This document shows, piece by piece, positions 31,054 to 36,229 of a stretch of DNA of 64,000 nucleotides. The position numbers and the translations under genes were made by a program. The stretch lies in NCBI RefSeq assembly GCF_000368785.1, contig NZ_KB849690.1, positions 598,252-662,251 of the forward strand. Direction: 5' to 3'. The DNA comes from Acinetobacter towneri DSM 14962 = CIP 107472. Its GTDB lineage: Bacteria > Pseudomonadota > Gammaproteobacteria > Pseudomonadales > Moraxellaceae. Within the stretch, counting starts at the first letter, position 1. Each line of letters starts with the position of its first letter. The notes beneath the pieces were generated by a model. The model made no database searches, was not told the DNA's origin, and saw nothing but the letters and a program-made list of their open reading frames with translations.

Positions 31054-33099
31054 ATGTCTAAATTTTATCAGCCTGCGCTGTTTTTAACAGTCTGTGCATT
31101 GTGTTCGAGTTCTGCATTTGCTGCGGTCAAGGAATATCACCTGACCATTGCAGAACAAACGGTCAATATCACGGGAAAACCTGTTCAACGTATTACAGTC
31201 AATGGACAATTTCCCGCGCCTGCACTCGAATTTGAAGAAGGCGATGAGGCGGTAATTCACGTTAATAATCAATTAAAAAATCAGGACTCATCTATTCACT
31301 GGCATGGTTTATTGTTGCCCGGTTTGATGGATGGTGTGCCTGGATTTAATGGTTTTCAAGGGATTAAGCCACAAGGACATTTTGTTTATCAATTTAAAGT
31401 ACGTCAAAGTGGTACCTATTGGTATCACGCACATTCCAAAGGTCAGGAACAAGATGGTCTATACGGCTCTTTGGTGATTCATCCTAAAGCCAAGCCAGCC
31501 GTAAACGCACATGAATACACAGATCGTGATTATGTGGTGATGCTGTCAGATTTTCATGAAAAATCTAGCAATCAAATTCAGAAAGATTTAAAAATTTCAG
31601 CCGAGTTTTATCAAAATCAGCGTGAAACCTTAGGTGATGTTTGGCGTCAAGTACAGCGTGATGGGCTAAAAGCCACATGGTCAGACCGCAAAATGTGGAA
31701 TCAGATGCGCATGCTGAAAACCGACCTTTCCGATGTCACAGGCTATACTTTTTTAATGAATGGCAAGACACCTGAACAGAACTGGACAGGTGTATTTAAG
31801 CCAAATGAAAAAGTGCGTTTACGTTTTATCAATGCCTCTGCCATGTCGTTTTATGATGTGCGGATTCCAAACTTAAAAATGACAGTGGTCAGTGCCGATG
31901 GTCAGCCAGTCAAACCTGTTACTGTGGATGAATTTCGTATCGGCACTGCAGAAACCTACGATGTGATTGTTGAACCTCAAGCAGCGCATTATCAAATTGA
32001 AGCGGAATCAATAGACCGCTCAGGTTTTGCTGTGGGTAGCTTGCAGAGTGAACTTCATTCTGCAACATCAAATCTACAGCTCCCTGCAGCGCGCCCGCGT
32101 GCTTTACTCACCATGCAAGATATGGGGCATGCTACAGAGCATTCAGGCGATGATCATTCCAAGATGAACCATGCAACGATGTCTGAAATGGATCACTCAA
32201 AAATGAATCATGCAGCGATGTCTGAAATGGATCATTCCAAAATGAACCATGCAGCGATGTCGGATATGGATCATTCCAAGATGAACCATGCAGCGATGTC
32301 GGAAATGGATCATTCCAAGATGAACCATGCAGCAATGTCGGAGATGGATCATTCCAAGATGAATCATGCAGCGATGTCGGAAATGGATCATTCCAAGATG
32401 AACCATGTAGCGATGTCAGAAATGGATCATTCCAAGATGAATCATGCGGTAATGTCGGAAATGGATCATTCCAAGATGAACCATGCAACAATGTCTGAAA
32501 ATACGCATACACAACATGGCATGCCTTCAACAGAACACAAAAATGCGGTGGTATATGGATGGGCAAATGCTTCTACACCCGCGGGGCATAAAGCCTTGCA
32601 CTATGAAGATTTGAAATCGCTGCAGCCACAAGCAGATACACGTGAACCAAGCAGTGAATTGGTCGTGCGTTTAGGCGGTACGATGGAGCGTTATATCTGG
32701 ACAATCAACGGTAAGAAATTTAGTGATGCCACACCACTCAAGGTGAAATATGGTGAGCGTATTCGGATTAAATTTATCAATGACAGCATGATGGCACATC
32801 CAATGCATTTACATGGCATGTTTATGCAGTTGGAAAATGGTCAAACGGCAGCAGAAATGCCGAATAAACACACCTTAATTGTGCCGCCAGGTCAAACTGT
32901 AACTGCACTGCTTACTGCAGATGAATTAGGTGAATGGGCAATACATTGTCATTTGCTCTATCACATGAGCGCGGGAATGATGAATAAATTGATTGTAGCG
33001 CAGGTGAGTGAAAATGAACCGCTTTCAACCACAGCAATTCAAGCCACTCAAACCCCTTCAGCGACAGCGCAAAAAGGAGCAGCACATGCACAACATTAA
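31054..33099 (+). CDS. copA: Copper-resistance multicopper oxidase CopA (PcoA family)
   Basis: A 681-residue periplasmic multicopper oxidase that probably oxidises Cu(I) and sequesters copper. It has a signal peptide ending SSSAFA and no obvious twin-arginine motif. The copper ligands are in SSIHWHGLLLPG, TYWYHAHSKGQ, HPMHLHGMF and HCHLLYHMSAGMM. Between the second and third cupredoxin domains lie nine tandem 13-residue units of the form MDHSKMNHAAMSE (residues 366-482), a methionine/histidine copper-binding insert. It overlaps copB by 14 bp. An antisense frame over the repeats is an artefact. Confidence 0.96.
   Translation: MSKFYQPALFLTVCALCSSSAFAAVKEYHLTIAEQTVNITGKPVQRITVNGQFPAPALEFEEGDEAVIHVNNQLKNQDSSIHWHGLLLPGLMDGVPGFNGFQGIKPQGHFVYQFKVRQSGTYWYHAHSKGQEQDGLYGSLVIHPKAKPAVNAHEYTDRDYVVMLSDFHEKSSNQIQKDLKISAEFYQNQRETLGDVWRQVQRDGLKATWSDRKMWNQMRMLKTDLSDVTGYTFLMNGKTPEQNWTGVFKPNEKVRLRFINASAMSFYDVRIPNLKMTVVSADGQPVKPVTVDEFRIGTAETYDVIVEPQAAHYQIEAESIDRSGFAVGSLQSELHSATSNLQLPAARPRALLTMQDMGHATEHSGDDHSKMNHATMSEMDHSKMNHAAMSEMDHSKMNHAAMSDMDHSKMNHAAMSEMDHSKMNHAAMSEMDHSKMNHAAMSEMDHSKMNHVAMSEMDHSKMNHAVMSEMDHSKMNHATMSENTHTQHGMPSTEHKNAVVYGWANASTPAGHKALHYEDLKSLQPQADTREPSSELVVRLGGTMERYIWTINGKKFSDATPLKVKYGERIRIKFINDSMMAHPMHLHGMFMQLENGQTAAEMPNKHTLIVPPGQTVTALLTADELGEWAIHCHLLYHMSAGMMNKLIVAQVSENEPLSTTAIQATQTPSATAQKGAAHAQH
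32149..32499 (+). repeat. Nine 39-bp tandem repeats inside copA
   Basis: Nine consecutive 39-bp units, each encoding a DHSKMNH-x-x-MSE/D peptide. Units 2, 4, 5 and 6 are identical in protein, and the others differ by one or two residues. Being a multiple of three, copy-number change would keep the frame. Confidence 0.95.
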
Positions 33100-34056: not shown

Positions 34057-34101
34057 TTGTCCCTAAATACATAGGCTTGGTTTATACTGAGCCTATTGTA
34101 T
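34057..34101 (+). promoter_or_regulatory. Candidate metal-responsive promoter of the CDF gene
   Basis: TTGTCC (34057-34062) and TATACT (34083-34088) are separated by 20 bp, longer than the standard 17 and typical of MerR-type activated promoters. An inverted repeat, ATACATAGGCT (34067-34077) with AGCCTATTGTAT (90-101 in the same hundred), is centred on the -10 box and would suit a repressor. No regulator gene is adjacent. Confidence 0.5.
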
Positions 34102-34116
34102 TTTTGGGTGTGGCGT

Positions 34117-35178
34117 ATGTCTTCATCAACTCAAGATCCTCAATCGAATCAAGATAAAAACTTAGAAAACCAAAATCTAAACAATACTGGCTGTGGTTGT
34201 GATACGCAAAAAAATGTAAACCAGCCTTGTGCAACTGCGCCTACACACTCCAAGTCATGTGGCGATACAGGCTGTGGTTCGTCTTGCGATACAGAAAAAA
34301 GCTGTGCTGATCAAAATAGCTGTACATCTGCAACGACTGCCAAGGCAGATAAAGCAACAATTTTGGATTCGGAACTTTTGAGTCCGTGGGTGAGTGCATA
34401 CCATATTCCTAAAATGGATTGTGGCGCAGAAGAACAAATGGTGCGGATTGCTTTGGCAGATCATAATGATATTGCAGCCTTGTCTTTTGATTCACCTGCA
34501 CGACTTTTAAAGGTTTATCACAGCAACCAATCTGCCACAGAAATTACCCATAAATTAGAAGCATTGGGTTTGGGTGCTGTGTTGCAACAGACTGAAGCCA
34601 ATACACAAACTGAACTGCCTGTATCTAACAGCGCTGCACAACAAAAAGTGCTATATGCCTTGCTTGGTATTAATGCCGCTATGTTTTTGGTGGAATTAAT
34701 TGCAGGTTTAATTGCATCTTCGACTGGGTTAATTGCTGACTCCTTAGATATGTTTGCCGATGCCGCCGTGTATGGTTTGGCTTTATTTGTCGTGGGTCAA
34801 TCCGCCAAGAAACAGCTCAAAGCTGCACATTTGTCTGGTTGGGTACAACTGGGTTTGGCTGCACTGGTTATCTTTGATGTCCTGCGCCGTTTCTTCTTAG
34901 GCAGTGAGCCTGAATCCATGTTGATGATGGTCATTGGTGCTGTGGCATTGCTGGCAAACGTCACCTGTTTATGGCTAATTTCAGGGCATAAAGATGGTGG
35001 AACCCACATGCAAGCCAGTTATATTTTTTCCGCCAATGATGTGATTGTGAATTTAGGTGTGATTATCGCGGGCGGTTTGGTGATGCTGACAGGGTCGAAT
35101 TATCCAGACCTGATTATTGGCTTAGTTGTGGCCATGTTTGTATTGAATGGTGCGCGCAAAATTTTAAGTTTAAAATAG
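34117..35178 (+). CDS. Cys-rich cation diffusion facilitator (CDF) transporter
   Basis: A 353-residue protein in three parts. Residues about 20-75 are Cys-rich (GCGCD, CGDTGCGSSCDTEKSC) and likely bind metal. Residues about 90-165 form an HMA-like ferredoxin fold (YHIPKMDCGAEEQMV) with one of the two usual cysteines. The rest has about six membrane helices. TM2 keeps a D-x-x-x-D motif (SLDMFADA), but the TM5 motif reads FSAND, so the expected histidine is absent. There is no long cytoplasmic C-terminal domain. Zn, Cd or Co export is likely, but the altered site makes the substrate uncertain. The chosen ATG follows the candidate promoter by about 30 nt. Confidence 0.82.
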   Translation: MSSSTQDPQSNQDKNLENQNLNNTGCGCDTQKNVNQPCATAPTHSKSCGDTGCGSSCDTEKSCADQNSCTSATTAKADKATILDSELLSPWVSAYHIPKMDCGAEEQMVRIALADHNDIAALSFDSPARLLKVYHSNQSATEITHKLEALGLGAVLQQTEANTQTELPVSNSAAQQKVLYALLGINAAMFLVELIAGLIASSTGLIADSLDMFADAAVYGLALFVVGQSAKKQLKAAHLSGWVQLGLAALVIFDVLRRFFLGSEPESMLMMVIGAVALLANVTCLWLISGHKDGGTHMQASYIFSANDVIVNLGVIIAGGLVMLTGSNYPDLIIGLVVAMFVLNGARKILSLK

Positions 35179-35212
35179 ACGGATCATCGCTGCGCGGTGG
35201 CTTAAATTGCAA

Positions 35213-35320
35213 CAGGAGGAACGACCTCCCTTGTTTGGGTTTTTAGAAATAGTCAAAGTGACTGAACACTCGACAAGAAAAATCTTCAGGACGGCCTGAT
35301 TTCATGCTATTGAAGGAGGG
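35213..35320 (+). promoter_or_regulatory. Candidate guanidine-II (mini-ykkC) riboswitch
   Basis: Two GC-rich hairpins precede an SMR exporter. The first is GGAGG-AACGA-CCTCC (35215-35229); the second is CAGG-ACGG-CCTG (35287-35298). Tandem hairpins with ACGR loops are the hallmark of the guanidine-II class. The linker (about 57 nt) is long and contains its own hairpin AGTCA-AAG-TGACT. The 3' arm CCTCC of hairpin 1 can pair with the Shine-Dalgarno GGAGG at 35315-35319, giving a simple switch: ligand holds hairpin 1 and frees the ribosome-binding site. Confidence 0.78.
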
Positions 35321-35324
35321 CGTT

Positions 35325-35642
35325 ATGGCCTGGATGATGTTGATATTGGCGGGTATTTTTGAAGTGGTTTGGGCATACTCCATGAAGTTGTCTGACGGCT
35401 TTAGTAAATTAACGCCCAGTATCGTGACTATCTTTTTTATGATTTTAAGTTTTGCGCTTTTGGCCTATGCCATGCGTACTTTGCCATTAGGCACGGCTTA
35501 TACGATTTGGACAGGTATAGGCGCAGTCGGTTCATTTTTAGTCGGTATTTTTGTTTTAGGCGAACCTGCCAGTGCTATGCGTATGTTGGCTGCAGTTCTG
35601 ATTATTTCAGGTTTGGTGCTTATGAAAATTTCATCCAGCTAA
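35325..35642 (+). CDS. gdx: SMR-family guanidinium exporter (Gdx/SugE type)
   Basis: A 105-residue protein with four membrane helices. It has the essential Glu13 in GIFEVVWAYSMK and the block PLGTAYTIWTGIGAVG, which match the SugE/Gdx subgroup rather than QacE/EmrE multidrug members. Gdx proteins exchange guanidinium for protons. The frame is open to 35304, but the ATG at 35325 has a strong AAGGAGGG Shine-Dalgarno. The upstream candidate guanidine-II riboswitch supports this function independently. Confidence 0.9.
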   Translation: MAWMMLILAGIFEVVWAYSMKLSDGFSKLTPSIVTIFFMILSFALLAYAMRTLPLGTAYTIWTGIGAVGSFLVGIFVLGEPASAMRMLAAVLIISGLVLMKISSS

Positions 35643-35737
35643 CTTGGAATGCAGTCTTTTAGTGTGTGCTCAATAACAGATCGGTTTGAGTTAAAAACAG
35701 GATGACCTGATACCCAACCTGCTTGAGGAGAAAAATA

Positions 35738-36229
35738 ATGCAATTGGCATTTACTGAAATGGACACTCCTGTAGGCGTGCTTAAATTGGTGGCTCACGAT
35801 CACGCATTGGTTGCGGTAATGTGGGATAACGAAGATCATAAACGGGTACGTTTAGCCAGTTTAGTTCGACAAGATGATCATCCAATTTTGCTCAAAACTC
35901 AGCAGCAACTCCAAGAGTATTTTGCAGGTCAGCGTCAGCAATTTGATGTGCCTCTTGATTTTGAAGGCACTGAATTTCAGAAGAAAGTCTGGCAGGCGTT
36001 ATTAAGCATTCCTTTTGGGGAAACTCGTAGTTATAAGCAAATTGCCGAACAAGTTGGTAGTGAGAATGCGATGCGTGCCGTAGGGGCGGCAAATGGCAAA
36101 AATCCAATTTCGATTATTGCACCGTGTCATCGGGTGGTGGGTGCAAGTGGAAAATTGGTGGGCTTTGCAGGCGGGTTGGATAATAAAGCGATTTTGTTAA
36201 AGTTAGAATCTTCAACTTCAAAAGTTTAA
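35738..36229 (+). CDS. ogt: Methylated-DNA-[protein]-cysteine S-methyltransferase
   Basis: A suicide enzyme that removes methyl groups from O6-methylguanine. The 163-residue protein has the acceptor-cysteine motif IAPCHRVVG, the DNA-binding helix-turn-helix region YKQIAEQVGSENAMRAVGAANGKNP, and a short N-terminal domain, as in Ogt. The ATG at 35738 has GAGGAG upstream; an ATG-less extension to 35723 is less likely. No Ada regulatory domain is present. Confidence 0.95.
   Translation: MQLAFTEMDTPVGVLKLVAHDHALVAVMWDNEDHKRVRLASLVRQDDHPILLKTQQQLQEYFAGQRQQFDVPLDFEGTEFQKKVWQALLSIPFGETRSYKQIAEQVGSENAMRAVGAANGKNPISIIAPCHRVVGASGKLVGFAGGLDNKAILLKLESSTSKV

Follow-up and report, generated by a model that had tools for sequence, protein, structure and literature searches.

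The question raised by this locus is whether two hairpins in the leader of an SMR exporter gene of Acinetobacter towneri form a guanidine-II riboswitch, and whether they do so as a strict member of that class or as a variant of it. A preliminary description, made from the letters only, had placed hairpins with AACGA and ACGG loops before a SugE/Gdx-type SMR gene in the window, by which we mean the whole stretch of 64,000 nucleotides that was analysed. The coordinates could be read directly and the gene models agree with this (Table 1). It was also correct that the CCTCC arm of P1 is the exact complement of the Shine-Dalgarno sequence GGAGG, and that the five-base loop is outside the published compact form, as is the long structured linker, which measures 56 nt between arms of 5 bp. 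The claim of a guanidine-II riboswitch for a Gdx exporter stands as regards descent, and the leader very likely works alike, but it is better described as a derived guanidine-II variant than as a strict member, failing on the P1 tetraloop, the linker length and the Rfam score. We regard it as highly probable that the leader is such a derived riboswitch and switches on the translation of gdx, the gene of the guanidinium exporter; translational ON control of guanidinium export is likely.

Table 1. Features of the gdx leader and gene, with positions counted from the first nucleotide of the window.
Feature	Position	Strand	Description
P1 hairpin	35215..35229	+	GGAGG-AACGA-CCTCC; arms 35215-35219 / 35225-35229, pentaloop 35220-35224
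Linker hairpin	35230..35277	+	closing helix CTTGTT 35230-35235 with GACAAG 35272-35277, directly 3' of P1
A-rich unpaired spacer, 7 nt	35278..35284	+	AAAAATC, between linker helix and P2
P2 hairpin	35286..35299	+	TCAGG-ACGG-CCTGA; arms 35286-35290 / 35295-35299, loop 35291-35294
P2 3' arm	35295-35299	+	candidate Shine-Dalgarno-pairing element (alternative pairing in the predicted unbound fold)
Shine-Dalgarno sequence	35315..35319	+	GGAGG, 5 nt 5' of ATG; complementary to P1 CCTCC
gdx/sugE-type SMR exporter gene	35325..35642	+	105 aa, MAWMM...

The start of the gene was set at 35325, where it has the MAW... start common to its relatives and a Shine-Dalgarno sequence before it; the ORF list gives an upstream ATG at 35304. 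The ORF 35325-35642 passes the NCBIfam model NF008512 (SugE) narrowly, with 127.1 bits at a cut-off of 126, and its protein matches Pfam PF00893. The closest solved relatives, aligned over their full length at E-values of 4.8e-32 and 2.4e-31, are chains of 8vxu and 6wk5, which we take to be the guanidinium exporter Gdx-Clo. The gene is of the SugE/Gdx type, and its product is a putative guanidinium exporter. The leader and gdx are located between an ORF for a cation-diffusion-facilitator (CDF) transporter (34096-35178) and an ORF with 6-O-methylguanine-DNA methyltransferase domains (35738-36229). The CDF ORF has a Cys-rich N-terminal stretch, and 36 nt separate its end from P1; a promoter was looked for there on the + strand of the window and not recognised. 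Elsewhere in the window there is an ORF that by eye is copper-oxidase-like (31054-33099), with nine DHSKMNH-type Met/His-rich repeats, and at the window start a partial 23S rRNA gene and a 5S rRNA gene (1-2603).

Compared with the family RF01068, the leader has the same two short, G+C-rich hairpins in tandem, the same ACGR element in the loop and an SMR exporter gene shortly after. Both CG cores are kept, and the P2 loop ACGG is an ACGR tetraloop. The P1 loop, in contrast, is ACGA with an extra A. The linker length can be compared to the published guanidine-II form, which has ACGR tetraloops and linkers of 7-40 nt (PMC7544219); the linker in the window is longer, and it consists of a covarying helix and a near-constant, conserved A-rich spacer, while the known linker is described as poorly conserved (PMC9561414). 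When both strands of the window were searched with a two-loop pattern, written after the sequence had been seen (three pairing-compatible bases on each side of the loop, 9-60 nt apart), the hairpin pair occurred once, and it was absent from 200 simulated sequences of 64 kb with a similar dinucleotide composition, each searched on one strand.

A match to the mini-ykkC covariance model, which the preliminary description looked to for support, was not obtained with the Rfam model. RF01068 (Guanidine-II) does not match the window at its gathering threshold (32 bits), and neither the interval 34900-35700 nor the contigs of the whole genome gave a match at E-values up to 10. In a search of 141 bases P2 alone was aligned, with 9.4 bits and an E-value of 8.8, which is at the noise level and below the threshold of 32. 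A model built from the genus succeeds. R2, which was made without the window's clade (the window, L041 and L042), finds 35212-35300 with 64.3 bits (E 3.7e-15, by a rough calibration), 9.1 bits being the score of the best match elsewhere in the window. The Rfam threshold was passed by two of 20 gdx-leader loci, chosen from at least 80; these two, L092 and L112, belong to the five loci with ACGR, and none of the 15 with AACGR passed. Compact ACGR leaders before gdx scored 33.1 bits in G010 and 36.0 bits in G078, both over the threshold, and 29.1 bits in G017, and a pittii-type leader, which has AACGA and a short linker, reached 23.9 bits with a column deleted to place the loop.

At its own threshold the Rfam model misses most leaders of this kind. 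Guanidine-II was over the cut-off in 5 of 60 Acinetobacter genomes searched, with weaker matches in more of them, as compared to 140 of 175 matched by the genus model R1 under a laxer criterion (E up to 0.1). A regulon of a genus with clinically relevant species is thus largely unannotated by the Rfam model. R1 was built from 34 long-linker pentaloop leaders and has the window in its training set by construction, and its weaker matches include tetraloop and compact forms. It matches eight of 369 gammaproteobacterial genomes, the genome of the window among them; only G482 of the other seven has a strong match (38.6 bits), the rest being at about 20 bits. We read 50 of the R1-matched loci, the 30 best and 20 chosen for odd lengths or scores, and 46 of these parse as P1, linker, P2 and gdx. 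The remaining four (L191, L196, L197 and L205) have both hairpins by eye, the P1 stem of L205 being weak. Two R1 matches each in G022 and G098 were considered as tandem riboswitches, a reading that was rejected when each pair of matches turned out to be a single element whose linker is very long. The linker is 117 nt in L003 (G022), 127 nt in L067 (taken as G098) and 90 nt in L063, with the closing helix kept. Second weak R1 matches are also present in G158, G160 and G167.

The leaders of relatives were compared in a set of 80 gdx loci listed from named genomes and the window's own copy (L001), 81 in all. Some genomes are present twice, under a G handle and under a name; the counts use the named set and L001, and 70 of the leaders are distinct. 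P1 and P2 were found by a loop pattern in 76 of the 81, and the CG core of both loops is present in all 76, as the pattern itself demanded. Among the misses, L090 has both hairpins in a hairpin scan, and its P2 3' arm begins with CT, which the pattern excludes; L079 and L084 lie, by eye, behind another gdx-like coding stretch; and in L118 a P2 was found without the usual kind of P1. In A. harbinensis (L076) gdx is retained, and neither P1 nor P2 was seen there with the pattern or the hairpin scan.

The P1 loop of the 76 leaders is AACGA in 51, ACGA in 19 and ACGG in 6. The P2 loop is ACGA in 47, ACGG in 27, GCGG in 1 and CCGA in 1, and all 51 pentaloop leaders have a tetraloop at P2. The pentaloop and the long structured linker are common in Acinetobacter and not peculiar to the window. 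Among 67 rows from Acinetobacter/Moraxellaceae, 36 have AACGR and a linker of more than 25 nt, 15 AACGR and a short linker, 13 ACGR and a short linker, and 3 ACGR and a long one. Leaders with linkers of 13-15 nt are ACGR without exception in the listed set, and within the genus the gdx leaders grade between compact ACGA and long AACGA forms. Loss of the ACGR loops in close relatives, named in the preliminary description as evidence against the riboswitch, has occurred to a limited extent: P2 is GCGG in one close relative, L041 (MAG UBA801), and CCGA in A. soli (L097), the first base being altered and the CG core kept in both, and G029, as close to the window as L041, retains ACGG.

When the loop is traced on a tree of the 76 gdx genes, no fewer than 8 changes of state are required, and starred branches force at least 4 of these; L066 and L073, which are close gene relatives, differ in the P1 loop. 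These changes imply that a single homologous element has gained and lost the extra A. A common descent of the window leader with undisputed guanidine-II members can be inferred from the gene, the position and the sequence that they share.

Outside the genus, AACGR was found in the 369 gammaproteobacterial genomes only in G482, before a gdx-like gene, with a search pattern that covers linkers of 9-39 nt and misses the window itself. The pattern alone was rejected as evidence, since its reversed control matched about 15 genomes. The leader of G482 (L152, AACGA) and that of G374 (L184, ACGA) are from the same other gammaproteobacterial genus (g201), both before a gdx-like gene and both with what seems to be a short hairpin in the linker; the loop may have changed a second time in the same way there, or the change may have been transferred. 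Plasmid records contain gdx-like genes at 60-80% identity, none spanning 80% of the query. In some species there is a second gdx paralogue (L033, L035, L038 and L039), preceded by a compact ACGA/ACGA Guanidine-II leader of its own that exceeds the Rfam cut-off. Tandem gdx-like genes, with the second copy close behind the first, were observed in L079, L084, G019:C114 and G022:C1, and could possibly encode paired subunits.

The hairpins are kept by paired changes. In the 70 distinct leaders 343 of 350 cells are paired in P1, with 12 double changes, and 409 of 420 in P2, with 35 double changes, and in neither case were any of 500 shuffles as high. The pairs were counted over all leaders by a script; the whole-set MAFFT alignment shifted the ACGR rows one column at P1. 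In an alignment of 34 rows, double changes are seen in five of the six pairs of the linker helix, and 87.3% of its cells are paired. The three-helix structure in these rows is 94.5% paired, as compared to 89.3% when shuffled and at most 54.2% when slid, and its covariation score is 0.192, as compared to 0.116 and at most 0.057; the shuffles leave relatedness in, and sliding keeps relatedness as a control while favouring the unslid version, the structure having been read from the same sequences. Three of five pairs in P1 and five of six in P2 are invariant in the 34 rows, so the covariation evidence there is evidence for the linker helix.

The position of the linker helix is also nearly constant. 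A register scan covered the 55 distinct leaders whose linkers measure 17-127 nt. With the helix placed directly after P1 and 7 nt left to P2 (0/7), 90% of cells were paired, and all four pairs were present in 38 of 55 leaders; registers off this diagonal gave at most 58%. A helix was found by rule in 62 rows, 45 of them at 0 and 7 nt, and the other 17 have a spacer of 5, 6 or 8 nt or a helix that starts one base later; in L054 the helix is not seen in the 0/7 register. The spacer AAAAWUC carries 1.25-2.0 bits at six of its seven positions in the 34 rows (uncorrected for relatedness), as compared to about 0.1-0.5 bits in the sampled interior of the linker. Such conservation points to a contact, which may lie in the groove of a stem. 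A minimal linker helix, CCCA...TGGG, is found in pittii-type, brisouii-type and Janthinobacterium leaders. The Janthinobacterium leaders have 16-nt linkers, with a 5-nt spacer by the P2 boundary chosen, and are outside the register scan. A link between pentaloop and linker helix was considered, the helix being present in 50 of 51 pentaloop and 12 of 25 tetraloop leaders, and was dropped on account of too few independent changes on the tree.

It is possible, if somewhat doubtful, that such leaders form a separate structural subclass, in which the helix at the foot of P1 and the 7-nt A-rich strand set the P1-P2 geometry in cis, and the pentaloop gives an asymmetric pair of sites with different affinity, stoichiometry or ligand preference. 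If so, the near-constant geometry would argue, on evolutionary grounds, for P1 and P2 working together within a single molecule. Another reading, in which the aptamer has drifted and the leader, as its pentaloop and long linker would show, is weakened or constitutive, is retained chiefly for translation and responds little to guanidine, could account for the lack of an Rfam score over the threshold, for the changed P2 loops in L041 and L097, and for an extra A that flips at least 8 times on the gdx tree (at least 4 of them forced), as a nearly neutral change would. We consider drift very unlikely, because decay would not preserve P1, P2 and the linker helix by paired changes, the CG cores in 76 of 76 leaders (which the pattern required) and the 7-nt spacer in the 34-row set. 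It is very unlikely that a variant pocket senses methylguanidine or another guanidinium derivative rather than guanidine, through a P1 site made larger or otherwise altered by the extra A; every pentaloop leader does have the change in the P1 loop that binds ligand, with a tetraloop at P2, but the controlled gene is gdx in both loop forms, and even such close gene relatives as L066 and L073 differ in the loop. That the two hairpins and the linker hairpin serve mRNA stability or intrinsic termination only, or are due to chance, is most improbable. P1 followed by CTTGTTTGGG was scored as terminator-like by a simple scan, but no more than three T stand in a row in the tail; the window contains the pair only once, and much of the genus keeps it before gdx. 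A chance origin is already refuted by the R1 matches in the genus, the simulations, the R2 match and the covariation.

If the leader is a derived guanidine-II riboswitch with translational control, some part of it should hide the Shine-Dalgarno sequence. The preliminary description proposed the 3' arm of P1, and the complementarity is there: the pairing of P1 CCTCC with the Shine-Dalgarno sequence in the window amounts to -9.3 kcal/mol, and the P1 loop and 3' arm pair with their own Shine-Dalgarno region more strongly than with the regions before 51 other ORFs of the window (ATG-started, at least 150 aa). Folding, by thermodynamic prediction without ligand or kissing, does not bear out this role, as it keeps P1 formed at 0.95 in the window leader and P2 at 0.01, with part of the Shine-Dalgarno sequence paired with the P2 3' arm at 0.31. 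In 36 long-linker AACGA leaders this pairing averages 0.21 with the P2 arm and 0.05 with the P1 arm. Co-evolution of the P1 arm with the Shine-Dalgarno sequence was considered and rejected, its own pairs being no better than permuted ones (0.245); those of the P2 arm are better (0.0055, with relatedness left in). The predicted folds thus favour the P2 3' arm rather than the P1 arm as the element that would hide the Shine-Dalgarno sequence. A. tandoii (L078) is unlike the window in having the P1 arm as the predicted partner.

An extended pairing, of the P1 loop and 3' arm with the Shine-Dalgarno sequence and the spacer after it, is strong in some species, L054, L073 and L077 among them (-17.2 kcal/mol), and was rejected as a general rule since shuffled spacers do equally well. 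With the Shine-Dalgarno core fixed, a median of 0.47 of the shuffled spacers was as good as the native one, and values below 0.05 were obtained in 2 of 36 long-linker AACGA leaders and in none of 13 others.

Enforcing P1 and P2 together raised the predicted accessibility of the Shine-Dalgarno sequence in 31 of 36 long-linker AACGA leaders, from 0.26 to 0.44 in the window. It rose in 8 of 13 short-linker AACGA leaders and in 12 of 24 ACGR leaders, where the average went from 0.45 to 0.42. This absent or weak effect in the ACGR and short-linker AACGA leaders speaks against the explanation we prefer, as do the P1 loop, which is AACGA and not an ACGR tetraloop, and the non-ACGR loops at P2 in L041 and L097. 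The Rfam score below the threshold, the gdx gene of A. harbinensis with neither hairpin seen before it, the P1-arm pairings that do no better than permuted or shuffled ones and the lack of a recognised promoter before the window copy count against it too.

In the known RNA the two loops kiss via CG pairs, each binding one guanidinium, and the helices become collinear, with a 14-nt linker spanning about 49 Å (PMC5486947). For the gdx leader the analysis shows homology, covariation of the three helices, a near-constant geometry and the association with gdx, and we infer the ligand, the kissing contact, the direction of control, the arm that hides the Shine-Dalgarno sequence and the role of the A-rich strand. 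Guanidinium binding would lock the two loops into a kissing contact via their CG cores, which would keep the arms in their own hairpins and the Shine-Dalgarno sequence free. In the absence of ligand the leader would refold, and the Shine-Dalgarno sequence would be masked by the P2 3' arm or by the CCTCC arm of P1. The linker helix at the foot of P1 probably takes up the excess length, whatever the length of the loop beyond it, and the short A-rich strand, usually 7 nt, would alone span the distance from P1 to P2.

The SugE leader of E. coli has the same kind of target gene and a translational ON model, and its anti-Shine-Dalgarno element is placed in the linker, which is 13 nt long (PMC9300104, PMC9094411). 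The linker in the window, in contrast, is predicted to pair with itself, which implies that the P1 or the P2 arm would have to serve instead. For the guanidine-II leader of P. aeruginosa, where guanidine raises ribosome loading in vitro and control is at translation, a P0 helix of the 5' and 3' flanks has been proposed to hide the Shine-Dalgarno sequence (PMC9561414). In part of the Acinetobacter leaders there is a TATAAT close to P1. Of the 76 leaders (all genera), 21 have an exact TATAAT within the 30 nt upstream of P1, as compared to 4.9% of shuffles. One-mismatch boxes are not in excess (25 of 76 leaders, as compared to 37% of shuffles); exact and one-mismatch boxes taken together cluster at 11-16 nt upstream of P1 (33 of 46). 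The exact boxes suggest that P1 is probably near the mRNA start in those leaders, which would leave little 5' flank for P0. The window itself has no TATAAT box before P1. Neither the linker proposal nor the P0 proposal suits the window leader well.

The mini-ykkC and guanidine-II literature, as far as its accessible parts go, contains no description that we found of this remodelled form, and a prior mention is possible. No paper on a guanidine-II riboswitch in Acinetobacter was found in the literature searched, and the accessible parts of the mini-ykkC literature name the genus in a reference only. The remodelled leaders bear on how much variation the ligand loop of guanidine-II tolerates, and on the intramolecular pairing of P1 and P2. 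Whether these pair within one molecule is asked in PMC7544219 and addressed with the E. coli RNA in PMC9094411, and a helix-clamped linker with near-constant spacing amounts to a natural experiment on this point.

A compact Guanidine-II match was observed in G009:C1 (L189, 632-678), with 27.3 bits and thus below the threshold. The ORFs downstream of it are, by eye, an ABC ATPase, an iron/2-oxoglutarate dioxygenase-like protein, an unknown protein of 293 aa and an EmrE-like SMR protein. This run of predicted ORFs, likened by eye, recalls the methylguanidine dioxygenase-lyase loci of PMC12508155.
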